Assembly: GCA_017503015.1 (NCBI GenBank)
Contig: JAFVTX010000003.1
Span: 1-34,516, forward strand
DNA: 34,516 nt
DNA from: Fibrobacter sp.
GTDB lineage: Bacteria; Fibrobacterota; Fibrobacteria; Fibrobacterales; Fibrobacteraceae
Reading direction: 5' to 3'
The position numbers were made by a program, and so were the translations under genes. The notes beneath the pieces were generated by a model, which worked only from the letters and a program-made list of their open reading frames with translations, was not told where the DNA came from and did no database searches. How positions within the stretch are numbered: position 1 is the first letter of the stretch; each line of letters begins with the position of its first letter. Shown in pieces: positions 23,788-34,516 of this stretch.

Positions 23788-24864
23788 TTACGCTCCGGCG
23801 TCTTCCAGTCGTTTCACATGGCAATAAGCCAGTTCTTTGGTCTTTTCATCACGTAAATGCAGGCTGGAGCCTTCGCAGTAGCGCCAGTACTTGCAGGTCT
23901 TGCAGTCGCCAATCTTTGCCCAGCGGCGGTCCCGCATCACCTGGTAGCGGTTCTGCCACACGTCCCAGATATCGTCCTTGTAGATGTTCCCCTGGATGTA
24001 GTCGCCGCGGAGGCTCGGGCATGCCGAAATGCTCCCGTCGCAGAGCACGGAACTGACGTTCACACCGGCGCGGCAGAAGAAAGGGTAATTTCGGGCTTCT
24101 TTCTCGTAGCTCCCGAGGAACCCTTCGCAGCCGTAGTTCACATTGATGACCTTCAGGGACTTCACCTCCCGGATAAAGTCAAAGACTTGCCGGAATTCTT
24201 GGTTGGTCAACTGGAACAGCGGGTTGTCCTTGGCGCGGCCCTTGGGGAACACCGTCGCAATACGCCAGCGCTTCACGCCGATTTTCAGGAGAATTTCGAG
24301 AATCTTCGGCAGTTCCTTCAGGTTCTCCCGGTTCACGCAGGTCATCACGTCGAAAGTGAGCCCTTGGGTGTGAGCGGCCATGTCGATGGCCCGGAGCGCG
24401 TTGTCAAAGCTGGTGGGAGCGCCGCGGAAATGGTTGTGGCTTTCCCGGAGGCCGTCGAGGCTAATGGTAAGCGAGCGGAGCCCGGCGTTCAAAAGTCCCT
24501 TGTAACGCTCTGGCGTCATGGCAAGGCCGTTACTGACCATGCCCCAGGGATAGCCCCGCTTCTTGATTTCTTGCCCGCATTCTTCAAGGTCAGGGCGCAT
24601 CAGGGGCTCGCCGCCGGTAATCACCACAATAAAATGTTTCGGGTCTATGTGTGGGGTAAGCTTGTCCAGAGCCCCCAAAAAATCTTCGCGGGGCATGTCC
24701 GGGATGGCATCCTTCACGCAGTCGCTACCGCAATGCAGACAGTGCAGGTTACAGCGCAGCGTACATTCCCAAAAGAAATAGGTCAGCGGGTGCGCCTTAA
24801 TTTCGTTATGACGGTAAAGACGATAGGCTTCGAGGGCGAGTTTTTTCTTAAAACAAAGATGCAT
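23788..24864 (-). CDS. Radical SAM/SPASM enzyme of an rSAM-lipoprotein system
   Basis: 358 residues. The radical SAM cluster motif CxxxCxxC is at Cys38, Cys42 and Cys45 (LRCNLHCLHCGSDC), followed by VVITGGEPLMRPDLEECG (the GGEP SAM site) and LRSLTISLDGLRESHNHFRG. The C-terminal SPASM part has FFCRAG, VLCDGSISACPSLRGD, IQGNIYKD and CKTCKYWRYCEGSS with a final AYC, enough Cys for auxiliary 4Fe-4S clusters. From memory, it closely resembles the Bacteroidetes radical SAM enzymes encoded next to a small lipoprotein, and lipoprotein genes lie directly upstream here (five-base gap). SPASM enzymes modify peptides or proteins; the substrate is not known. Confidence 0.92.
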   Translation of the reverse strand: MHLCFKKKLALEAYRLYRHNEIKAHPLTYFFWECTLRCNLHCLHCGSDCVKDAIPDMPREDFLGALDKLTPHIDPKHFIVVITGGEPLMRPDLEECGQEIKKRGYPWGMVSNGLAMTPERYKGLLNAGLRSLTISLDGLRESHNHFRGAPTSFDNALRAIDMAAHTQGLTFDVMTCVNRENLKELPKILEILLKIGVKRWRIATVFPKGRAKDNPLFQLTNQEFRQVFDFIREVKSLKVINVNYGCEGFLGSYEKEARNYPFFCRAGVNVSSVLCDGSISACPSLRGDYIQGNIYKDDIWDVWQNRYQVMRDRRWAKIGDCKTCKYWRYCEGSSLHLRDEKTKELAYCHVKRLEDAGA

Positions 24865-24869
24865 GGAAA

Positions 24870-25346
24870 CTATTCATCTTCCGTCGGCTTTTCAGGGCAG
24901 TTTATGGTGGGAAAACACCCGGCCAATGGGTCAGGGTCAAGGTTGGGATTGCGTTCTATGCAAACTTCCTGGGCCGACTCGCAGTTCTTGGCCTTGTCGG
25001 AACCCGCCTCAGGAGCCAGGGCTTCCACACCTTCTGGGAGCACCACCCCCTCCCCCGTGGCATCGGAAGGATCTCTCAAGTACCTGTTTCCATCGGTGCA
25101 GTCGATAATCTTGAATTCCTTGCCTGCTTCGTTTTTCGCCATGTCATTAAAACATAAGGTTATAGACTTAAAATCAGCAGGAGCACCATAAAGAGCGACT
25201 ACCATGCCTACGGAATCCTCAACAGACATCCCCACATCTTCTTTCTTGTCAAATGACGAGTCGTGGTCTGATGTAGAATCGCCACAGCCTGCCCAGAAGA
25301 ATCCGGTCAGTGCAAGTGCAATCTTTTTCCAATGCCGGTAGAACAT
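24870..25346 (-). CDS. Cys-module lipoprotein A, partner of radical SAM enzyme
   Basis: 158 residues. Signal peptide MFYRHWKKIALALTGFFWAGC ends in a lipobox, giving a lipid-anchored protein. A short acidic linker leads to VVALYGAPADFKS, which matches the YGxPxAD(F/Y) motif I recall in lipoproteins paired with this radical SAM family. One module follows with six Cys in the order LCF, DCTDG, NCE, VCIE and GCFPTINC. GGAG lies five bases before the ATG at 25346; a longer frame upstream lacks such a site. It is five bases from the radical SAM gene. Signal peptide and module are clearly paralogous to lipoprotein B. Confidence 0.85.
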   Translation of the reverse strand: MFYRHWKKIALALTGFFWAGCGDSTSDHDSSFDKKEDVGMSVEDSVGMVVALYGAPADFKSITLCFNDMAKNEAGKEFKIIDCTDGNRYLRDPSDATGEGVVLPEGVEALAPEAGSDKAKNCESAQEVCIERNPNLDPDPLAGCFPTINCPEKPTEDE

Positions 25347-25419
25347 TTTCGCTCCTTCACTACCCAAGCCTATCCAGCAAAATACAATTTTTTGATAAAC
25401 CCATCAACGACGCACGTTC

Positions 25420-26196
25420 CTATTTGTGTGGACAGTCGATGGTCGGGGCGCAGTATTGCTTCTTGGAGCCACAATCGGTCTCTGCACAGGTGTCTGGGCC
25501 AAGCTTACAGTTTTTAGCATTCTTTCCGCCTGGTTCCGGGAAGCCAACAGTGACATCTTCCGGTATAGAAATCGGGTTTGTTGCACATATAGAGAATGGT
25601 GCCTGTTCCCGGGTCCATTTGTGACCGTCATCGCATTCAACAATGTCAATCTCTACGTCGTCCTTGTTTTTTACCGATGTGGCATAGCAGTTGATTGTTG
25701 TCGTATCAGGTTTGTAGGGACACTCGATAGTCGGGTAGCAGCCGCCATACTGCCGTCCCTGGGAATCAATTTTATCGACACAAAGCGGCGCTGCGTTGAA
25801 ATTGCAATTGTCGCCCTCGATTCCCTCTCGCGGTTCGCTCCATAGAATGTCCTTCGGGATTCTGTCTTTTAAGCCCTCCGAGTACACGACAAAATCCTTG
25901 AGGTATTTTTTCCCGTTGTCGCATTCAAAAATACTATAAGAGGAGCCGGCGGTATCTTTTACAGACGTGGTGTAGCAGTTGACAGGCGCTCTGCCGCTGC
26001 TAGAACTACTGGAAGATTCATCCGTGTCGCCATTGTCGCTTATTGTAGCGGAAGACTCGACTTTATCGGAGTTGCTGCTCTGGTATTCCGGTGGAGGCCC
26101 ATAAAGGCACTCAGCTTCTGACGAAGAATCGTCACAACCGGCCCAGAAAAAACTGGTCAGGGCAAGCAAAAAGACTTTCCAGTATTTGTAGAACAT
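25420..26196 (-). CDS. Cys-module lipoprotein B with two modules
   Basis: 258 residues. MFYKYWKVFLLALTSFFWAGC is nearly the same lipoprotein signal peptide as in lipoprotein A. CLYGPPPEYQSS repeats the YGxP motif, then comes a Ser/Asp/Glu linker and two modules, about residues 72-162 and 166-258. Each has NCY-TSVK, ECD-GxK(Y/W), a central IP(K/E)D, and a C-terminal (G/Y)C-PTI-CP-K. Module 1 has six Cys, module 2 has eight. AAGGAG sits six bases before the second of two ATG codons, chosen here and matching lipoprotein A. Function unknown; genome order suggests both lipoproteins are substrates or partners of the radical SAM enzyme. Confidence 0.85.
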   Translation of the reverse strand: MFYKYWKVFLLALTSFFWAGCDDSSSEAECLYGPPPEYQSSNSDKVESSATISDNGDTDESSSSSSSGRAPVNCYTTSVKDTAGSSYSIFECDNGKKYLKDFVVYSEGLKDRIPKDILWSEPREGIEGDNCNFNAAPLCVDKIDSQGRQYGGCYPTIECPYKPDTTTINCYATSVKNKDDVEIDIVECDDGHKWTREQAPFSICATNPISIPEDVTVGFPEPGGKNAKNCKLGPDTCAETDCGSKKQYCAPTIDCPHK

Positions 26197-26228
26197 CATC
26201 TGCTCCTTTTCGCCCATTCCCTGTCAGT

Positions 26229-26234
26229 AATATA
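26229..26234 (-). promoter_or_regulatory. Possible -10 element for the lipoprotein/radical SAM operon
   Basis: TATATT on the minus strand, 32 bases before the ATG of lipoprotein B. It would leave a leader of about 26 bases that includes the AAGGAG ribosome-binding site. No convincing -35 box. Confidence 0.4.
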
Positions 26235-26285
26235 CATTTTTTACCGTTCTAAAAGCACCTTTCAGAAAAAAAGGAAACCCATATC

Positions 26286-26316
26286 ACAAAAAGCCCGCCT
26301 CGTGAGAAGCGGACTT
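26286..26316 (-). terminator. Intrinsic terminator after the GH94 gene
   Basis: On the minus strand AAGTCCGC pairs with GCGGGCTT (8 bp, one G-U) around a ten-base loop, followed by TTTTTG. It lies about 50 bases downstream of the GH94 stop. Confidence 0.75.
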
Positions 26317-26330
26317 GAAAGTTTCTAGGA

Positions 26331-26354
26331 GATCCCCGCCTGCGCGGGGATGAC
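26331..26354. repeat. REP-like palindromic repeat, copy 1
   Basis: ATCCCCGCCTGCGCGGGGAT is an almost perfect palindrome followed by GAC. A copy differing by one base is found at 33425-33448 inside tilS. Near-identical palindromes are common dispersed repeats in many bacteria. Confidence 0.8.
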
Positions 26355-26363
26355 ACCGCAGGA

Positions 26364-28874
26364 TTAACCCAAAGTAACTACTACTTTATGAACACCCTTC
26401 GTAAAGATAGGTGCCACGTCGGCGTCAATCTTCTTGCCATCGACGATCATCTCGGCGACACCCTTGCACACGTGCTTCGGGTTCTTCACTTCGATTTCGT
26501 AGGTTGCACCACGGAACTTGCGGGTCACCTTGAAGCCGTCCCACTTGGAGGGGATGCAGGGGTTGATAATCAGGCCCTTGAAGCTTGCGCGGACACCGAT
26601 GATGAACTGGGTTGCAGCCTGGTAGGTCCAGGAGCTGGTTCCGGAGAGCCATGCGTTACGGCCCATACCGAACTGCTTGTGTTCGTCACCGAGAATGTTC
26701 TGCGGGTAGCAATAAGGTTCCGATTCGAACTCGTCGAGCTTGGTGTTCTTGGCAGCCGGGTTAATTTGGCTGTAATACTGGAAGGCCTTGTCGCCACGGC
26801 CTAGAATCGTTTCGGCAATCATCACCCACGGGTTGGTGTGGAGGAAGATACCGCCGTTTTCCTTGGCTCCAGGAGGATAAGTGGAGATGCCACCCACGTT
26901 GGGGTCGAAGCCGCGGTAGCCCGGAGTAGAGCTCTTCACGCCGTTGGCGGTGTTGAGGAGCTTGTTCAGGCTGTCCATGCCCATCACGGCGCGGTCGCCG
27001 GTAGCGATACCGGAAATCACGGACCAGGACTGGCTATTGCAGTAAATCTTGCCGTACTTGGCCTTGTTGGTGCCGTAGGCGTTGCCCTGCTTGTCGAACC
27101 AGCGGACCCACCACTTGCCGTCCCAGGCGCTCTTGTTGAAAGCGGCCTTCACGTCTTCGTACCACTTCTTGTACATTTCCACGGACTTCTTGTCGCCGAG
27201 AGCTTCGCAGATGTCCATCATCTCGAGCAATGCCTTGGCGTAGAGGCCGGTGTTGAAAGAAGATTCTGCACCGAGAGGCAGGTTCATGCAGTCGTTCCAG
27301 TCAGCAAAGCCAAGGAGCGGAAGGCCGTGCTTGCCCAAGTGAGTGCGGGTAAAGTTGAGGGAGCGCTTCAGGTGTTCAAGGACAGTGCCCTTTTCACGCT
27401 GGGCGCGCTTCTTGCCAGCTTCGTAGAACGGAACTTCTTTCTTGAGAAGATCCATCTTGCCGGTTTCCTTGAGGTAGTTTGCAATCGTGAGCACGATCCA
27501 GAGGTGGTCATCGCCGTACCAGTCAGCGTAAGCCGGCTGGCCCTTTTCGTCGAGGACGCCCTTCTTTTCGCGGGAGTCGCCGGCGTTTGCTTCGTTGCCG
27601 TTGTCTTCTTCGAGGGCAAGCGGAGCGTACTGGTGCATGGCGTTACCTTCGGGGCGCTGCACAGAGAGCAGGTTCAAAGCGAGCTGGAGAGCTTCTTCCG
27701 GCATGTGGCTCATGACGCCCATCAGGTCCTGGCTGGAGTCACGGTAACCGATACCGCGGCTGGTGCCGTAGCCCAGCTGGTACAGGGACAGGTAGCGGCT
27801 CCAGTTCTTGGTGGTGTGGCACTGACGGGGGTTGTGGACGTTCACCATGGAGTTGAACGCTGCATCCGGAGTCTGCACCTGGATAGTAGAAAGGTAGTTC
27901 TGCCAGAACTTGGCCAGTTCGTCGAAAGCCTTGTCCACGTTCTTCAGGTCGCGGTACTTGGCGATGGCCTTGGCGGCAACCTTCAGGCTCTGTTCCTGAC
28001 CGAGCTGGGTGCAGGTGCGGAAGGTCTTGCCTGCGGCAATCTTGCCAGCGTGGATCATGAGAGCGGCAATGTTGTCGCCACGGTCGCATTCGCTGTTGGA
28101 AAGTTCTTTGTTGGCGAGGCTGAGCGGAGCTGCCCAGGAACCCATTTCGTTTGCGCCGAGGAACACGCGGCGGTCGCCATCGAAGCTACCGACCTTGCAG
28201 TTAGCGGTCACATAGTTCACGGCAAAATCGCGCTTCATGTAGGCGTACTGTTCCAGCACCACGTGGCCGTCCTTTTCCCAGTGGCCCTTGAGGGTCATGG
28301 TCTGGGGAACCCAGTCGGCGTTGGTGAGCTGCTTTTCAGCTTCGAAATGGCTGAATTCATAAACCGGGATAATGTCCACTTCCTTGGCGGTCTTGTCGAG
28401 GTTGGTGACCTGGATGTCCTGGAGGAGAGTGTTGGAGCCGGTCGGAACGAAAATCGTCACTTGCGTACGGAGGCCTTCGCATTCGGCAATCCAGCGCATG
28501 TAAGAAAGACCCACGTGACATTCCCACTTCTTCATCTTGGTGAGGGTCGGGACCACAAACGGGGAGAACACGGTGTAACCCTTGGCGTTCTTCACACGGA
28601 TATAGATGGTGCTAGCCTTGAAGTCAGAGCAGGGCATCTGGGCGATGTACTTGGTGATACGGTTCAGGGCGGGGTCGCCCTTGCAAACCAGGGTACCGCC
28701 GGTGGTATCCACGATACCGCCGAAGTTCAAAGTACCGACGTAGTTACACCACTTAATCGGGGTTGCCGGGGTGGTGAGCACGTATTCTTTCTTGGCGTCA
28801 TCGAAGTAGCCGTACTTGGCGGCCGGGGCCTTGGAGGCGACCTTCTTGACACTCTTCTTCTGTTTTGTAGCCAT
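26364..28874 (-). CDS. GH94 glycoside phosphorylase (cellobiose/chitobiose phosphorylase-like)
   Basis: 836 residues, the usual GH94 size. A basic N-terminal tail (ATKQKKSVKKVASKAPAAK) precedes the beta-sandwich domain, then the (alpha/alpha)6 barrel with GYRDSSQDLMG near residue 380, MHQYAPL, WYGDDHLWIVLTIANYLKETG and GFADWNDCMNL near residue 525, where the first Asp of DWND is the general acid. GH94 enzymes split beta-linked disaccharides with phosphate, saving ATP, which suits a cellulose degrader. The Tyr-Gly-Asp-Asp-His-Leu-Trp version differs from classical cellobiose phosphorylase (NDDPLW), so chitobiose, laminaribiose or longer glucans are possible. No signal peptide: cytoplasmic. A clear GGAG site precedes the ATG. 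Confidence 0.9.
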   Translation of the reverse strand: MATKQKKSVKKVASKAPAAKYGYFDDAKKEYVLTTPATPIKWCNYVGTLNFGGIVDTTGGTLVCKGDPALNRITKYIAQMPCSDFKASTIYIRVKNAKGYTVFSPFVVPTLTKMKKWECHVGLSYMRWIAECEGLRTQVTIFVPTGSNTLLQDIQVTNLDKTAKEVDIIPVYEFSHFEAEKQLTNADWVPQTMTLKGHWEKDGHVVLEQYAYMKRDFAVNYVTANCKVGSFDGDRRVFLGANEMGSWAAPLSLANKELSNSECDRGDNIAALMIHAGKIAAGKTFRTCTQLGQEQSLKVAAKAIAKYRDLKNVDKAFDELAKFWQNYLSTIQVQTPDAAFNSMVNVHNPRQCHTTKNWSRYLSLYQLGYGTSRGIGYRDSSQDLMGVMSHMPEEALQLALNLLSVQRPEGNAMHQYAPLALEEDNGNEANAGDSREKKGVLDEKGQPAYADWYGDDHLWIVLTIANYLKETGKMDLLKKEVPFYEAGKKRAQREKGTVLEHLKRSLNFTRTHLGKHGLPLLGFADWNDCMNLPLGAESSFNTGLYAKALLEMMDICEALGDKKSVEMYKKWYEDVKAAFNKSAWDGKWWVRWFDKQGNAYGTNKAKYGKIYCNSQSWSVISGIATGDRAVMGMDSLNKLLNTANGVKSSTPGYRGFDPNVGGISTYPPGAKENGGIFLHTNPWVMIAETILGRGDKAFQYYSQINPAAKNTKLDEFESEPYCYPQNILGDEHKQFGMGRNAWLSGTSSWTYQAATQFIIGVRASFKGLIINPCIPSKWDGFKVTRKFRGATYEIEVKNPKHVCKGVAEMIVDGKKIDADVAPIFTKGVHKVVVTLG

Positions 28875-28903
28875 TGTATCTCCGTGAGAGGGGGGTTAAT
28901 AGA

Positions 28904-28933
28904 GGTTAGGGGTTAGAGGCTAGGGGCTAGAGA
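28904..28933. repeat. 7-bp-period array upstream of the GH94 gene
   Basis: TTA/CTA cores at 28906, 28913, 28920 and 28927 are exactly 7 bp apart, in units of the type GGTTAGG/GGCTAGA. It lies in the GH94 leader region, between TATATT (28967-28972) and the start codon. Confidence 0.8.
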
Positions 28934-28966
28934 CACCAGCCATAAACCACAAATTTTTTCATGACA

Positions 28967-28972
28967 AATATA
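28967..28972 (-). promoter_or_regulatory. Possible -10 element (TATATT) for the GH94 gene
   Basis: TATATT on the minus strand, 92 bases before the GH94 ATG. If used, the 5' leader would contain the 7-bp array at 28904-28933. Confidence 0.35.
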
Positions 28973-29014
28973 GTTTTTAGTAAAATGTTCTCAAACAGCC
29001 GAGGGGTTAAAAAA

Positions 29015-29045
29015 CTAGATCCTAGCCCCTAGATCCTAAATCCTA
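29015..29045. repeat. 7-bp-period array overlapping the PadR stop codon
   Basis: CTA recurs at 29015, 29022, 29029, 29036 and 29043, exactly 7 bp apart, in units of the type CTAGATC/CTAGCCC. The last unit contains the stop codon of the PadR gene, so the array begins right where coding ends. Confidence 0.85.
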
Positions 29046-29648
29046 ATCTTTCTTCTGGTTGAAATTCTCAAAATCCCGGTTACCGAAGTTGATGTAGAAG
29101 TAGCCGTCCAGCTTCTTATTGCGGATGGGGTCCCGCAAAATGCCGATAGCGGCACGCACGTACTTGAGTTCCACCAGAATGTGGTCCCGGCTCATGCAGT
29201 TGAGGAAGGGACCTTCGGGGTAAAGGGTGGGCCTGGGTTCTTCGGCGATCATCTTCTCGAGATTCTCGATTTCCTGCACCAGGCGGCGCTCGTGGGCCTC
29301 CAGGGTGCGGATAAGTTCCTTGTTCTCGGCACCGTAGAGGAAGGCAAAACCAAGCGTCCTCGGGTCGTCGTTGAACCCGGTCAGATGCTTGAGGACCTCC
29401 TTGCGGAGGGTTTCCTTCCCCTTCTCGGTAATGCTGTACATCACGCGTTCGGGGCGATTGCCGTCTTTTTCGGCACGGCCAAGGATACTTCCATTCTTTT
29501 GCAGGGTGGTCAAGCGGTTATAGACCGTAGAGGTGCTGATCTTTGCCCAGCGGTCCAGCTCGCGGACCCGAATCTCCGTAATGATGTCATATCCGCTGCG
29601 TTCCTTTTCATCAATCAAGCCCAAAAGCACCAGGTCATAACGGTTCAT
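29043..29648 (-). CDS. PadR-family transcriptional regulator
   Basis: 201 residues. The N-terminal winged helix has the PadR pattern: LVLLGLIDEKERSGYDIITEIRV, then WAKISTSTVYNRLTTLQKNGSILGRAEKDG, VMYSITEKGKETLR, residues 4-85. It is followed by a Vir-like helical dimerisation part (LEAHERRLVQEIENLEKMIAEE) and a C-terminal tail. AAGGA lies seven bases before the ATG at 29648; a TTG one codon earlier is less likely. PadR proteins usually repress their own gene and a neighbour, and a perfect 15-bp palindrome lies 44 bases upstream. Ligand and targets are not known. Confidence 0.9.
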   Translation of the reverse strand: MNRYDLVLLGLIDEKERSGYDIITEIRVRELDRWAKISTSTVYNRLTTLQKNGSILGRAEKDGNRPERVMYSITEKGKETLRKEVLKHLTGFNDDPRTLGFAFLYGAENKELIRTLEAHERRLVQEIENLEKMIAEEPRPTLYPEGPFLNCMSRDHILVELKYVRAAIGILRDPIRNKKLDGYFYINFGNRDFENFNQKKD

Positions 29649-29692
29649 CAAAATTCCTTCGTTTTAGCGCGATATTATTCGCACGTGTGATT

Positions 29693-29710
29693 ATTCCAAC
29701 TTGGAATATA
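29693..29710. promoter_or_regulatory. Palindromic operator candidate overlapping TATATT, upstream of PadR
   Basis: ATTCCAA-C-TTGGAAT (29693-29707) is a perfect inverted repeat with 7-bp arms. Its right arm overlaps the TATATT (minus strand, 29705-29710) expected to act as -10 of the padR-like gene, an arrangement typical of an autorepressor site. Confidence 0.5.
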
Positions 29711-29798
29711 TACAAAAAAAAGCACAAAGGTACAGAGAATTGTAAAAAAAGACCCTGATTTTGCGAAAATATTAGTTTACAAGGTTGAAAGGACAGAT

Positions 29799-30473
29799 TT
29801 AATTGCACATTTTGCTGTACATCTCACTTTTCTGTTCAGGAGTGTACTTTTCGTCGGCTGTTCCTTGCGCCGTCATATTGAGCATATCCCCTTCGCATGT
29901 GGCAAACATGGTCATATCCGTTTCGTCTGAAGCCGCCGCCATGGTTCCAAAAACGGTGAGTAAGGCAGCTGTTTGCATACATTCCTCTTCGCTTTGGGCT
30001 TTACCTTCAGTAGCAATACTAAACCACAGGTCACCGTTGTCCTTGAATTTGATAGTTACATCAACTGAAGAATCCGCTTCAACTGTTTCAAAATGCCATT
30101 CATCGTCATCTAACGAGAATGTACAATCCATTTTCTGGTCTGGCACATACCTGGTCACATCCATGCCCGTGGAACCCGACGACAGGTCTCCGGAACCGCC
30201 CCCAAAATCACTAAACCAATCATCTCCCCAGCCATCATCAGGAAAATCGAAGGATTCTGAACTTGTGCCACCGCCCGTGGAACTGCTACTTTCTGAACCT
30301 ACATTAGCCGAGCTGCCTTTCGCTGATTCCTTGTCTCCAGTCTGGTTAAACCCGGGAATATTCGAAAGATCATCATCACCGCGGGAACCCTTGTCTGGGC
30401 TGGAAACGCTCTGGGAGCAAGCCCAGAACAGGACTAAGCAGGAACAGGCCAAGGCGATTTTCAACAACTTCAT
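29799..30473 (-). CDS. Ser/Gly-rich lipoprotein of unknown function
   Basis: 224 residues. Signal peptide MKLLKIALACSCLVLFWAC ends in a lipobox. A Ser/Gly/Asp-rich linker of about 80 residues follows (GSESSSSTGGGTSSES), then a globular domain from about residue 103 (TRYVPDQKMDCTFSLDDDEWHF to the C-terminal MYSKMCN) with four Cys that could form two disulfides. This layout is common among Fibrobacter surface lipoproteins. No family recognised. It is flanked by PadR downstream (147-bp gap, no gene seen in it) and NIF3 on the same strand. Confidence 0.7.
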   Translation of the reverse strand: MKLLKIALACSCLVLFWACSQSVSSPDKGSRGDDDLSNIPGFNQTGDKESAKGSSANVGSESSSSTGGGTSSESFDFPDDGWGDDWFSDFGGGSGDLSSGSTGMDVTRYVPDQKMDCTFSLDDDEWHFETVEADSSVDVTIKFKDNGDLWFSIATEGKAQSEEECMQTAALLTVFGTMAAASDETDMTMFATCEGDMLNMTAQGTADEKYTPEQKSEMYSKMCN

Positions 30474-30498
30474 AACAAACCCCTCTCTAACTTAAATC

Positions 30499-30504
30499 AA
30501 TATA
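30499..30504 (-). promoter_or_regulatory. Possible -10 element (TATATT) before lipoprotein gene
   Basis: TATATT on the minus strand, 25 bases before the ATG at 30473, in the 52-bp gap after the NIF3-family gene. Confidence 0.35.
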
Positions 30505-30525
30505 TATAAATCCTGACAAATTCGT

Positions 30526-31287
30526 CTATATGGGATTGTCAATATCCACAAATACCGCCGGAATCCCCAAATCAGCCGTAATTTTTTGAGCCAGGGCCCG
30601 AACTCCGAAGACCTCGGTCCGGTGGTGGCCGCAGGCAATGAGGTTAAAACCAGCCTCTTCTACCGCAATAGGCACGTTTTCCTTGATTTCGCCGGTCACA
30701 AATGCATCGCAGCCCAGGGCCATGGCCTCTTCTAGGCCAGAAGCGCCGCTCCCGCTGCAGATGGCCACACGGCGGATCTTGTCGGAGCCGAACATGAAGC
30801 TGTTCTGGACGCCTGCAGGAAACGCCTGGGCGGCAATTTCCAGAAAACGCTCCTTGGAAACAGGCGTGCCCCACTCCCCCACCTGGCCCACGCATTTTTC
30901 ACCTTCTTGCATGAAGCCTTCCACCACATTAAGTCCCAAGGCCTTGGCAATCAGGGCGTTGTTCCCGATTTCGGGGTGGCCGTCCAGAGGCAGGTGAAAA
31001 CCGTAGAGGGAAATCCCGTGCTGCATAAGCTGGTGAATACGCCTGCCGAAATGACCTACCGGAATCTTGGAATCCCCGTTCCAGAAGCCATTTGGGTGAT
31101 GGACGATGATTGCATCCGCACCCTCTTCGATGGCGCGCTCAATCAGGCGGTCGCGAAAAGAAACGCCTGTTACCACCTTGGTCACCTTGTCAGAAGCCTC
31201 TACACAAAGTCCGTCAACGCAGTAATCCTTGAACGCCGCCGGAGTGAGCAAACGGTCTAGCCAACACGAAAAATCCTTCAATTCCAT
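30526..31287 (-). CDS. NIF3/YbgI/DUF34-family dinuclear metal protein
   Basis: 253 residues, the usual length of the single-domain family. Metal-site motifs are present: ADAIIVHHPNGFW near residue 62, GFHLPLDGHPEIGNNALIAKALGL near residue 96, and ACGHHRTEVFGVRALA near residue 218, giving the His, Asp and Glu that bind two metals in the hexameric ring. Members have been linked to damaged-metabolite control and GTP cyclohydrolase type 1-like folds, but the biochemical role is not settled. It is a single-gene unit with TATATT at 31315-31320 and an AT-rich upstream region. Confidence 0.9.
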   Translation of the reverse strand: MELKDFSCWLDRLLTPAAFKDYCVDGLCVEASDKVTKVVTGVSFRDRLIERAIEEGADAIIVHHPNGFWNGDSKIPVGHFGRRIHQLMQHGISLYGFHLPLDGHPEIGNNALIAKALGLNVVEGFMQEGEKCVGQVGEWGTPVSKERFLEIAAQAFPAGVQNSFMFGSDKIRRVAICSGSGASGLEEAMALGCDAFVTGEIKENVPIAVEEAGFNLIACGHHRTEVFGVRALAQKITADLGIPAVFVDIDNPI

Positions 31288-31314
31288 AAAAGCCTCTAAT
31301 AGCAGTCTCTACTG

Positions 31315-31320
31315 AATATA
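31315..31320 (-). promoter_or_regulatory. Possible -10 element (TATATT) for the NIF3-family gene
   Basis: TATATT on the minus strand, 27 bases before the ATG at 31287, within an AT-rich divergent region shared with the XRE gene. Confidence 0.35.
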
Positions 31321-31415
31321 TAACAAAAAATGCGAAAAAACGAGATTTTTCCGAAAAATGTAACCATTTGTTATCACCGAAAGTGGCCGTAAATTCCTAG
31401 AAATCACATTTGCGG

Positions 31416-31745
31416 ATGAAGAGGAAAAACGAAATAGAAAGATCTTTCGACGAAAGTATCGCCTATTTGCTGAGAAAAGGCCGGGAAAAGCATGGCCACT
31501 CCCAGGACCTCGTCGCCCAGGAAGCGGGCATCAGCCGGGTTACCCTAGGGAAATGGGAGCGGGGCGAAAAGACCCCGAATTCCTTTGATCTGTACAATGT
31601 GCTCAATGTCCTCAAGTGGGAACCTGAAGATTTTTGGGCAGAACTGGGCAAGCATTTTGAACCGACGGCAAAGCCCCTGCGGATTGCCGCCGAACGGACC
31701 AAAATAAAAGCCTATATCGAACAGACCAAGAAAAAAAGGGCCTAG
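31416..31745 (+). CDS. XRE-family helix-turn-helix regulator
   Basis: 109 residues. The helix-turn-helix spans about residues 14-70: LRKGREKHGHSQDLVAQEAGISRVTLGKWERGEKTPNSFDLYNVLNVL, with the standard Q-LV-E-G-S--L--WE-G---P pattern. A basic C-terminal tail (RTKIKAYIEQTKKKRA) ends the protein. The start is uncertain: an ATG at 31416 or a TTG two codons earlier, with no clear ribosome-binding site. It converges on the ArfA-like gene, whose frame runs antisense into this gene. Target unknown. Confidence 0.85.
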   Translation: MKRKNEIERSFDESIAYLLRKGREKHGHSQDLVAQEAGISRVTLGKWERGEKTPNSFDLYNVLNVLKWEPEDFWAELGKHFEPTAKPLRIAAERTKIKAYIEQTKKKRA

Positions 31746-31950
31746 TAACGAAACGAAAAGGAAAATCCCCCGCGTCGGCGAGGGACTTCTTGTGCTTCAA
31801 GTTCCGGTTGTACTTTGTCTTGTCGCGGACCACCCTGGTCCGTAACGTGGCTCCGTTCTGGGAGCCGTCTATGCGTAGCGCTCGCATTCTTGCGCTTTCT
31901 GTTGCGGCATCGGCAACCTTGCCCGCCGCTTTCGCTCTGTTTTTAGCCAT
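31612..31950 (-). CDS. ArfA-like ribosome-rescue factor candidate, encoded as a non-stop message
   Basis: The ATG at 31950 has AAGGAGG five bases upstream, one of the best ribosome-binding sites in the window. The first ~62 residues are small and very basic, with LRTRVVRDKTKYNRNLKHKK at about 36-55. The spacing of Arg, Val, Lys, Tyr, Arg and Lys-His resembles the LFRxRVexxKKGKGSYxRKxKH core of ArfA. An intrinsic terminator (31764-31787) lies inside the frame, right after this core and before any stop; the frame runs antisense into the XRE gene until 31612. In Proteobacteria arfA is similarly cut before its stop codon, so tmRNA degrades the product unless trans-translation fails. Assignment is by motif only. 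Confidence 0.6.
   Translation of the reverse strand: MAKNRAKAAGKVADAATESARMRALRIDGSQNGATLRTRVVRDKTKYNRNLKHKKSLADAGDFPFRFVTRPFFSWSVRYRLLFWSVRRQSAGALPSVQNACPVLPKNLQVPT
31764..31787 (-). terminator. Intrinsic terminator inside the ArfA-like reading frame
   Basis: On the minus strand AGTCCCTCGC pairs with GCGGGGGATT (10 bp, including G-U pairs) around the loop CGAC, followed by TT and the T-rich CCTTTTCGTTTCG. The frame stays open through it. On the plus strand no good T run follows, so it serves mainly the minus-strand gene. Confidence 0.7.
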
Positions 31951-31967
31951 AGAAGCCTCCTTAAGGG

Positions 31968-31991
31968 GTAAATATAAATTCTTATATTTAC
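31968..31991. promoter_or_regulatory. Perfect inverted repeat between divergent ArfA-like and lipoprotein genes
   Basis: GTAAATATAA and TTATATTTAC form perfect 10-bp arms around ATTC. Each arm contains a TATATT facing its gene (minus: 31976-31971; plus: 31983-31988). It could be two mirrored -10 elements or a shared operator. Confidence 0.45.
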
Positions 31992-32021
31992 ATTGGAAAG
32001 TCACATCACATGGATTTTTTT

Positions 32022-33083
32022 ATGAAAAATTTTTTTATTCTTGCAACCTTAACTGCATTATTCATCGCTTGCGGTGATAGCAATTCTTCGTCAGCAACGG
32101 ATAACGATATTTTATCTTCATCTGAAGATAATTCTATTGATTCGTCCTCAGACGATAAAATTGGGAGTTCGTCGTCGGAAAACAAAAAAGAACAAAGCTC
32201 TTCTTCAAGTATCCAAGAAACAAGTTCTTCTGTCAGCGAAATAGAATCTTCATCATCAGCAAACAACGAGCCAACTTACAACTTCAACGATGATGAACTC
32301 GTCATAAAACAAATTCCAATATTTGACAAATTTGAAGGAAAACCTTTTTACTTTACAACTGAACCAAGATGCACTTATCGGAATGGAACTTTTTCAACCA
32401 ATCCCGATATGTCCGATTACGCCTATTTTTACGACATTTCAAAAGATACTCTTACAATGTCTCTAATAAAACTACATAAAATACTTGCCGGAAATTACGA
32501 AGACTTGCAACTCAGAGAAACATATTATGGTCAAAACAATACTATCAACGGAGAATGGGAATATCTGTGTTATCTTAGTTTAAACAGTGGAACATCTGAT
32601 TGCCCACATAATTTCAAAATAATTATTACATCGGATACCATTTACAATATTCACTCCATCAACCAATCAAAGGACAAAAATATATTCGAAATTATCGGAA
32701 AAATTACACATGTTGATCTAGGATATTTCGAGGACCTGAATTCTGCAGAACGATCCACAAAATATGCAGAAAATGGTATCACCATAGATTCCTCTGGAGC
32801 AAAGACTTTAATAAACATTCATGACAAGGGAATCATATCTATTGACGAAATAGCTACCAAAGTTATAAACAACCACGAAACAATATCTACAAAAATAGCC
32901 TTGTCAACAGACAAAAAAGAATGCATTTTAACATCTGAACGCACCCCTGTTAAATCGTCAAAATACTGTTCCGAAGAATATCTTCCCTATCTTGAAATAG
33001 ATGATTTTGATGGATATGTCTCAGCTTACACAAAAGGCAATCAAGAAGAATTTGACTCCTGCCTAGAGAACCTATTTAATTGA
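32022..33083 (+). CDS. AT-rich Ser-linker lipoprotein of unknown function
   Basis: 353 residues. Signal peptide MKNFFILATLTALFIAC ends in a lipobox. An ATG four codons earlier (32010) is an alternative. A linker of about 65 residues rich in Ser, Asp and Glu (blocks such as SSSSE) follows, as in many Fibrobacter surface lipoproteins. The globular part from about residue 85 shows no family I recognise; it has several Cys (RCTYRNG, YLCYLSL, DCPHNF, ECILT, KYCSEEY, DSCLEN) that could form disulfides. The gene is visibly richer in A/T than its flanks, which suggests later acquisition. Its stop overlaps the TTG start of tilS. Confidence 0.75.
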   Translation: MKNFFILATLTALFIACGDSNSSSATDNDILSSSEDNSIDSSSDDKIGSSSSENKKEQSSSSSIQETSSSVSEIESSSSANNEPTYNFNDDELVIKQIPIFDKFEGKPFYFTTEPRCTYRNGTFSTNPDMSDYAYFYDISKDTLTMSLIKLHKILAGNYEDLQLRETYYGQNNTINGEWEYLCYLSLNSGTSDCPHNFKIIITSDTIYNIHSINQSKDKNIFEIIGKITHVDLGYFEDLNSAERSTKYAENGITIDSSGAKTLINIHDKGIISIDEIATKVINNHETISTKIALSTDKKECILTSERTPVKSSKYCSEEYLPYLEIDDFDGYVSAYTKGNQEEFDSCLENLFN

Positions 33084-33424
33084 GTTTTGATTTAACGCAA
33101 AATATTCGCCGTCATGGATTCAAACGCCTGCTGCTTGCAGTTTCGGGCGGTCTAGATTCGATTTGCCTAGCGCATTATTTTATTTGCAATAAAGAGGCTT
33201 TTGGCATTGAATGGCTAGGGATTGCCCATGTGCATCACGGGCTGCGGGTCGGAACTGCCGACAGGGATGCTGCATTTGTGGAGTCTTTCGCCCGCAAGTA
33301 TAACGTTCCATTTTTCTTAAAAAAGTTGGATGGCGAAGCCCTAAAAAGTGCCGAAGGCTCGCTGGAAGAAAACGCACGAGACGCCAGGTACAAGGCGCTG
33401 GAAGAAATATTCAACGAGACAGAA

Positions 33425-33448
33425 GATTCCCGCCTGCGCGGGGATGAC
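33425..33448. repeat. REP-like palindromic repeat, copy 2, inside tilS
   Basis: Differs by one base from the copy at 26331-26354. It encodes DSRLRGDD in the tilS frame, between NARDARYKALEEIF and VIVTAHHAGDQAE, where most TilS proteins need no such segment. It keeps the frame open. Confidence 0.8.
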
Positions 33449-33578
33449 AATAAGGACGTCATCGTGACAGCGCACCATGCAGGCGACCAGGCGGAAACCA
33501 TGTACATGCGACTCCATCGCGGAACGACCCTTTCGGGACTCCGGGGAATCCAGGAATTTCGCATTCTTAGCAATAGCC

Positions 33579-33676
33579 AGGGCGTTGCGGGGCTGGCGTC
33601 TGAAGCCCCGCTAGAGGGGGTGATGGAAGACCGTGCAACGGGCTGCAATCAGGGGGAAACCTCCCCCACCTCGCGC
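33579..33676. repeat. GC-rich hairpin segment inserted in tilS
   Basis: Palindromes GGGGCTGGCGTCTGAAGCCCC and AGGGGGAAACCTCCCCC lie in a stretch read as about 30 residues between the SGLRGI motif and the RPFL-V-REEL motif of TilS, where typical proteins have only a few residues. The second palindrome closely matches one at 23676-23693 in the rplU upstream region. Confidence 0.5.
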
Positions 33677-34238
33677 CTATTCCGTCCTTTCCTTTCTGTC
33701 ACCCGCGAAGAGCTTCTCGCCTACGCCCGCGAAACAACCTTGAATGGGTGGAAGACGAGAGCAACGCCGACGTGAATTTTGCACGGAACAGGATTCGGCA
33801 CGAGATGTTGCCTCGGCTGGAGCGCGAATGCCCCGGTGCGACGGCTCAACTTTGCCGGATTGCCGCCCTTGCGGACAGGGCGTACGGGAAGGTGATGGAG
33901 GTGTGCGAGGGGCTATTCGGGACATGCCTGCGCGAGGATGACATTCCTCATGTCTCAATCATTCTGGACAAAAAGAAGTTCCGCAAGGTGCTGCTAGCCC
34001 ACGAGAACACTGACCTTTCCGAAATGTTTCGGCTGTGGCTTTCGGAGAAGGGCCTGCGCTTTCCTATCGGGTTCTTTTACGATCCGAAAGAGCCTGCCTG
34101 CGTCAAAATCCCCCACCACGCCGTTTACCGCAGGCGCGCCATCGTAAAAATCGGCCAGTCAGTCCGAATTTGCGAATTTGACAGCCCCGAAGAAGCCGAG
34201 ATTTTTGTATCTTGCGGAAAGAAAAATAAAGGATTATA

Positions 34239-34516
34239 ATGAGCCAACCCAAGAAGCCCACCTCCCCTTTCAAGAATCGCAATTTTATCATCGTCCTTGT
34301 GATGCTTTTGATGCTGTTCGTGATGTTCCCCCTCACAGGGAAAAGCAGCGAACAGGACATGACCCGCACGGAATTTCTCGCCATGATGGGAGATTCCACC
34401 AAGGTGATTACGGAACTTACGCTCCAGAAGACCCCCGACGGCATCATCATCGAAGGGGCCTACCAGATGAGCCCCGAAGAAATCGCCAAGGCAAACGAAC
34501 AGCGCAGCGCCCTCGC
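34239..34516 (+). CDS. ftsH: ATP-dependent zinc metalloprotease FtsH, N-terminus only
   Basis: The first 92 residues are in the window. A short basic N-terminus (MSQPKKPTSPFKNRN) precedes a transmembrane helix at about 16-33 (FIIVLVMLLMLFVMFPL), then the start of the periplasmic domain (MTRTEFLAMM, ITELTLQ). No AAA or HExxH region is visible because the window ends. Identity rests on this N-terminal architecture and on the tilS-ftsH gene order found in many bacteria. The ATG overlaps the tilS stop by one base. Confidence 0.75.
   Translation, partial: MSQPKKPTSPFKNRNFIIVLVMLLMLFVMFPLTGKSSEQDMTRTEFLAMMGDSTKVITELTLQKTPDGIIIEGAYQMSPEEIAKANEQRSAL

Follow-up and report, generated by a model that had tools for sequence, protein, structure and literature searches.

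A small Fibrobacter gene with a transcription terminator inside its reading frame: a candidate backup ribosome-rescue gene

The gene and its in-frame terminator

The window, that is, the whole stretch of 34,516 nucleotides analysed here, belongs to contig JAFVTX010000003.1 of Fibrobacter sp. On its minus strand, a reading frame opens with the ATG at 31950 and runs straight through a hairpin and its U-tract, until the first in-frame stop is reached at 31612. The features of this locus are as follows.

31971..31999, minus strand: putative sigma-70-like promoter, TTTCCA-17-TATATT; weak, from a consensus scan
31956..31962, minus strand: Shine-Dalgarno sequence AAGGAGG, read from the sequence
31950, minus strand: start codon ATG, downstream of the Shine-Dalgarno sequence
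31756..31950, minus strand: functional coding part, about 62-65 codons, MAKNRAKAAGKVADAATESARMRALRIDGSQNGATLRTRVVRDKTKYNRNLKHKKSLADAGDFPF; supported by homologues, pN/pS and the family alignment A1
31792..31842, minus strand: core motif RTRVVRDKTKYNRNLKH, that is R-x-R-V-x-x-x-K-x-x-Y-x-R-x-x-K-H, residues 37-53 of the conceptual protein; from alignment A1
31762..31789, minus strand: intrinsic-terminator hairpin inside the frame, GAAGTCCCTCGC-CGAC-GCGGGGGATTTT, 12 pairs with the loop CGAC
31756..31765, minus strand: U-tract TTTTCCTTTT; the mRNA is predicted to end here, around codons 63-65, and the relatives cease to be homologous at this point
31612..31755, minus strand: open frame past the terminator, antisense to the convergent gene; unconserved in sequence, with stops at random distances, and predicted to be accidental and not translated
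31410..31745, plus strand: convergent HTH_3 (XRE-type) regulator gene (Pfam HTH_3, E 3e-11), a neighbour outside the system

The Shine-Dalgarno sequence had been noted as a strong ribosome-binding site in the first-pass annotation, and the homologues bear this out, since AAGGAGG(C) or AAGGAG(A) is found upstream of the ATG in nearly all of them. As for the putative promoter, matches in the consensus scan are about as frequent as in shuffled sequences. The search of the window against Rfam gave no match, nor did the NCBIfam search.

The hairpin occupies codons 54-63, and its 12 pairs include an A/U flank, 8 of them being in the GC-rich part. A terminator hairpin of 10 bp directly after the core, with no stop codon before it, had been described in the first-pass annotation; the location and the open frame are confirmed, while the size has to be corrected. 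The minimum free energy is -18.3 kcal/mol (z -3.5), and the hairpin is the strongest terminator-like site within 24000-34516. In the whole window, no other strong hairpin followed by Ts lies close to the 3' end of any ORF. The U-tract is interrupted by CC, and therefore termination may be partial. Among 39 distinct hairpin variants from the relatives, 97.6% of the pair cells are standard, compared with 45-63% when the partner is slid, and one pair is seen as C-G, U-G, U-A and A-U.

It could be argued that the hairpin serves the convergent regulator gene, which ends close by at 31745, as its terminator, or that it attenuates a gene further downstream, and that it lies in this frame by accident. 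However, reading on the plus strand gives CTTCTTGTGC after the hairpin, which contains no U-run, and almost every relative has another gene downstream whereas the hairpin is constant, so that there is no conserved gene to attenuate. Such an accident is very improbable, and a chance origin of the combination of frame and hairpin is excluded because the combination is conserved among homologues. Elsewhere in the window, a palindromic CCCGCGCAGGCGGG-type element is located at 33413-33442, in frame within an apparent tilS gene (33080-33775), and it is possibly a repeat insertion in a coding region.

Conservation without a conserved stop codon

Homologues were identified by protein search in 70 of 168 Fibrobacterota genomes, nearly all in the window's own genus; those relatives that have a name are Fibrobacter, most of them assembled from metagenomes of the rumen and gut. 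Matches with E of about 0.001-0.01 in three genomes (G002, G115 and G140) were not counted, nor were those above 0.01 in a second search that fell outside the clear homologues. A tblastn search against plasmids gave no match. About 70 loci were examined, and the frame is open through the hairpin at every intact one. The sole exception (L029, in genome G061) is due to the end of a mobile element that has inserted into the loop of the hairpin and brings its own stop and hairpin (L092, at the end of contig 76); the same terminal sequence occurs near-complete eight times in G061, several times at contig ends. Homologues that reach an ordinary stop ahead of the hairpin had been named beforehand as the case that would speak against the proposed design, and all that was found of this kind is this single insertion-sequence disruption, together with phage and mobile copies that have no hairpin.

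The protein part is well conserved. For 59 unique cores the pN/pS is 0.18, and the core is under purifying selection. The short, very basic protein with an R-RV---K---Y-R---KHK core that had been recognized from the single sequence is recovered in alignment A1, where the core motif is nearly invariant, Lys52 is invariant and His53 is kept in more than 90% of the sequences. These values bear on the supposition that the frame is spurious and that the locus, which is short and has its own terminator, encodes a small RNA. The pN/pS and the strong, conserved Shine-Dalgarno sequence both speak against it, as does the fact that the amino-acid motif is common to phage proteins whose DNA differs; a small RNA is consequently extremely improbable here.

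The hairpin is also kept where its sequence is not. Three loci, from other genera and from a second copy, have a different hairpin at the same place, namely TCCATCGC/GCGATGGA (L069), TCCTCGAA/TTCGAGGA (L070) and ACGGCCC/GGGTCGT (L071). In another family of the phylum, a weak homologue (L091; E 0.002 to the Pfam family DUF7230 and 0.009 to A1) contains an unrelated terminator, AAAGGGCC...GGGCCCTTTTT, in frame upstream of its stop. At a further locus (L057), 21 nt are inserted between the core and the hairpin, and the frame is kept.

Past the U-tract, the relatives share 27% identity, which equals the random level, and 48 distinct contexts are found among the 59 unique cores. The first in-frame stop lies on average 21 codons past the hairpin, about the 64/3 expected for random DNA, and the same holds for the other two frames. 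The gene is thus one without a conserved stop, and its homology ends at the U-tract. Since the frame of the window is open to 31612, we also considered an ordinary small gene whose stop was missed, in which some transcripts normally pass the terminator and the product is that of the long frame. With sequence at the random level and stops at random positions past the U-tract, the tail of the long product would differ in almost every species, and this explanation is hardly credible.

The gene is not essential, because at least four near-complete genomes of the genus (G062, G087, G090 and G095) lack it yet keep tmRNA; these absences are lineage losses. Two loci of a different kind were also noted. 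One Fibrobacter genome has a second, diverged copy, MPVITITISIDTGKETPAQRKVRIAETQNGRKTRTRAIPDKRHKAPKHKKNPIDGE, with an ordinary stop (L072, G107 contig 34, 22496-22624), perhaps on a mobile element. A contig filed as 'Bacteroidales bacterium' (L141, JAKSMI010000017.1) carries a Fibrobacter-type non-stop gene with the hairpin, and is probably mis-binned.

Relatives in phages and the relation to ArfA

The core RTRVVRDKTKYNRNLKHKK gives weak matches to Pfam DUF7230 (PF23876) and to three unnamed phage families, phrog_2701, phrog_18092 and phrog_6310. Against DUF7230 the window protein scores 21.8 bits, below the cut-off of 27, and the relatives from viral contigs are also just under this cut-off. 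Comparison of the Fibrobacter family with a phage set (proteins from IMG/VR contigs plus Staphylococcus and Vibrio phages) by hhalign gives a probability of 99.4% with E 1e-21, and in a single-HMM test of this relationship all 33 family members score above all shuffled sequences. Homology of the Fibrobacter protein to the small basic phage proteins is clear, the profile-profile comparison by hhalign being decisive. The phage members come from IMG/VR contigs (L145-L151), a small contig filed as Clostridia (L143), Staphylococcus phages of the Twortvirinae (Romulus and P4W) and Vibrio phages, with L153, L154 and L156 among the loci of the last two groups. Many other tblastn matches in Vibrio phages were rejected as chance, being located in thymidylate synthase.

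The phage relatives are 45-70 aa long, apart from one longer frame, and their function is unassigned in the annotation. They share the core with the Fibrobacter gene, but the phage genes examined end at an ordinary stop codon, in most cases a few codons beyond K-H-K, and have no hairpin. Because they stop so soon after K-H-K, the protein needs nothing beyond the predicted end of the Fibrobacter mRNA.

How close, then, is the gene to arfA? The first-pass annotation had called it ArfA-like and proposed a search with the ArfA family HMM, which does not support the name: PF03889 has no match in the window's genome, nor among the 33 family proteins (the window protein and 32 relatives). With a single HMM of ArfA, the Fibrobacter family scores no better than shuffled sequences. 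In the profile-profile comparison with ArfA (proteobacterial and phage sequences), the similarity is weak and covers 21 columns only (probability 27.8%, P 6e-4); on the Fibrobacter side, this alignment reads TLRTRVVRDKT---KYNRNLKHKK. A bridge is offered by the Pseudoalteromonas phage protein J2-1, annotated as ArfA, which reaches 41.3 bits with PF03889 (cut-off 25.5) and 28.6 bits with DUF7230 (cut-off 27), while E. coli ArfA reaches 13 bits on the DUF7230 profile. No ArfA was found when viral contigs were searched with an ArfA query. Because J2-1 exceeds both cut-offs, a remote common descent with ArfA is plausible on the profile scores, though not proven.

Consequently, the Fibrobacter gene is not classed as a member of the ArfA (PF03889) family, and 'ArfA-like' is retained for the design and the short core motif, its clear relatives being phage proteins. 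ArfA (YhdL) of beta- and gamma-proteobacteria is likewise a basic protein, of 55-72 residues, made from a non-stop mRNA by means of an in-frame hairpin, with tmRNA as the primary system, and it contains the R-x-R-V...K...Y-x-R-x-x-K-H stretch in the same order. Unlike ArfA, the Fibrobacter protein lacks the K-K-G-K-G-S-Y form, is 3 residues shorter between K and Y, has a different N-terminal half (ESA..R.LRIDGSQNGATL) and occurs in a different phylum. The family profile gave no match to solved structures up to E 10. The AlphaFold2 model from 33 sequences is uninformative (pLDDT 61.5, pTM 0.25); it is consistent with a peptide that may be unstructured off the ribosome, and is not evidence for it.

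A putative backup to trans-translation

An in-frame hairpin is the site at which the arfA mRNA of E. coli is cleaved or terminated, and the brfA gene of B. subtilis contains an intrinsic terminator ahead of its stop (PMC8012679, PMC6881298). Both ArfA and BrfA receive the tmRNA tag, and they build up only if trans-translation fails; the Lys-His of their basic tails lies in the mRNA entry channel, and RF2 is recruited (PMC8012679, PMC6881298). BrfA (YqkK, B. subtilis group) resembles the Fibrobacter gene in its published architecture, with an in-frame intrinsic terminator, a product of about 62 residues and a Lys-His tail near residue 50, although it belongs to a different phylum (PMC6881298). 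Rescue systems of different species are reported to be poorly compatible with one another (PMC6881298).

Three features of the ArfA/BrfA class are found for the Fibrobacter gene, namely an in-frame terminator before any stop, a basic Lys-His tail, and tmRNA-SmpB together with RF2 in the cell. Lys52-His53 of the conceptual protein is the counterpart of the Lys-His in ArfA and BrfA. The window's genome contains tmRNA with the tag ADENYALAA (the gene being cut by a contig end), SmpB, and an RF2 with the SPF motif, and 68 of 80 genomes of the genus have a tmRNA match that exceeds the gathering score. As a separate observation, tandem tmRNA matches, two or three side by side, occur in some Fibrobacter genomes (G070 contig 23, 43557-44980; G088 contig 17, 30318-31214), possibly reflecting ssrA duplication.

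We therefore suggest, with a probability of about 0.8, that the gene is a backup ribosome-rescue gene under the control of trans-translation, which may work in the manner of arfA in proteobacteria and brfA in Bacillus. RNA polymerase would halt at the in-frame hairpin, giving an mRNA without a stop codon, and the ribosome reaching its 3' end would stall with about 62-65 residues on the peptidyl-tRNA. As long as tmRNA-SmpB is working, the product would be tagged and degraded; once it is absent or overloaded, untagged protein would be released and accumulate. The basic Y-x-R-x-x-K-H tail could then be inserted into other stalled ribosomes, in which the mRNA channel is empty, and the middle part of the protein would recruit a release factor, probably RF2. 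The non-stop backup logic that had been put forward for Fibrobacterota on one sequence thus gains strong support from comparative genomics, through the conserved frame and hairpin, the missing stop, and the presence of tmRNA, SmpB and RF2.

A different function under the same control should also be weighed, in which the mRNA is non-stop and subject to trans-translation, but the protein acts otherwise on ribosomes or RNA, for example in hibernation or as a phage-derived inhibitor, and the design merely keeps its level low. Some room for it is left by the weak homology to ArfA, and by the fact that the nearest certain relatives come from phages and have no assigned function. However, the described genes with a non-stop design that we found in papers are those of ArfA and BrfA (PMC6881298, PMC8012679), the core has the Lys-His tail of both, and the phage protein J2-1 forms a bridge to ArfA. 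Non-stop feedback suits a rescue factor because the factor appears when rescue fails. Another function is accordingly unlikely, and a backup rescue role is preferred.

A wider and more tentative proposal, to which we give a little less than an even chance, is that ArfA, the Fibrobacter non-stop gene and the widespread phage proteins of the DUF7230/phrog_2701 type may constitute one superfamily of rescue factors recruiting release factors. The phage versions with stop codons would escape tmRNA control, and Fibrobacterota cells would impose it by the in-frame terminator.

In a 2024 survey, arfA was reported to be confined to Gammaproteobacteria, some Betaproteobacteria and the B. subtilis group, with no instance among 1,956 genomes from the Fibrobacterota/Chlorobiota/Bacteroidota group (PMC11633108). 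In the open-licence literature, no paper was found on DUF7230 or on a Fibrobacter gene of this kind. The same non-stop feedback in a third lineage points to one of two histories: the solution is a recurrent one, or the family is old, diverges fast and has been missed by profile searches. A testable function is also offered for families of small phage proteins listed as unknown. Moreover, such factors can be searched for by a usable signature, namely a conserved terminator at which the reading frame, but no stop codon, is conserved.

ArfT of Francisella and ArfB (YaeJ) are likewise alternative rescue factors. ArfB is a GGQ hydrolase, whereas the Fibrobacter peptide has no GGQ. A 164-aa GGQ protein (GSGPGGQHRN), related to release factors and not clearly ArfB, is encoded at another locus (L096, G000 contig 24), and it could be one more factor for rescue or release.
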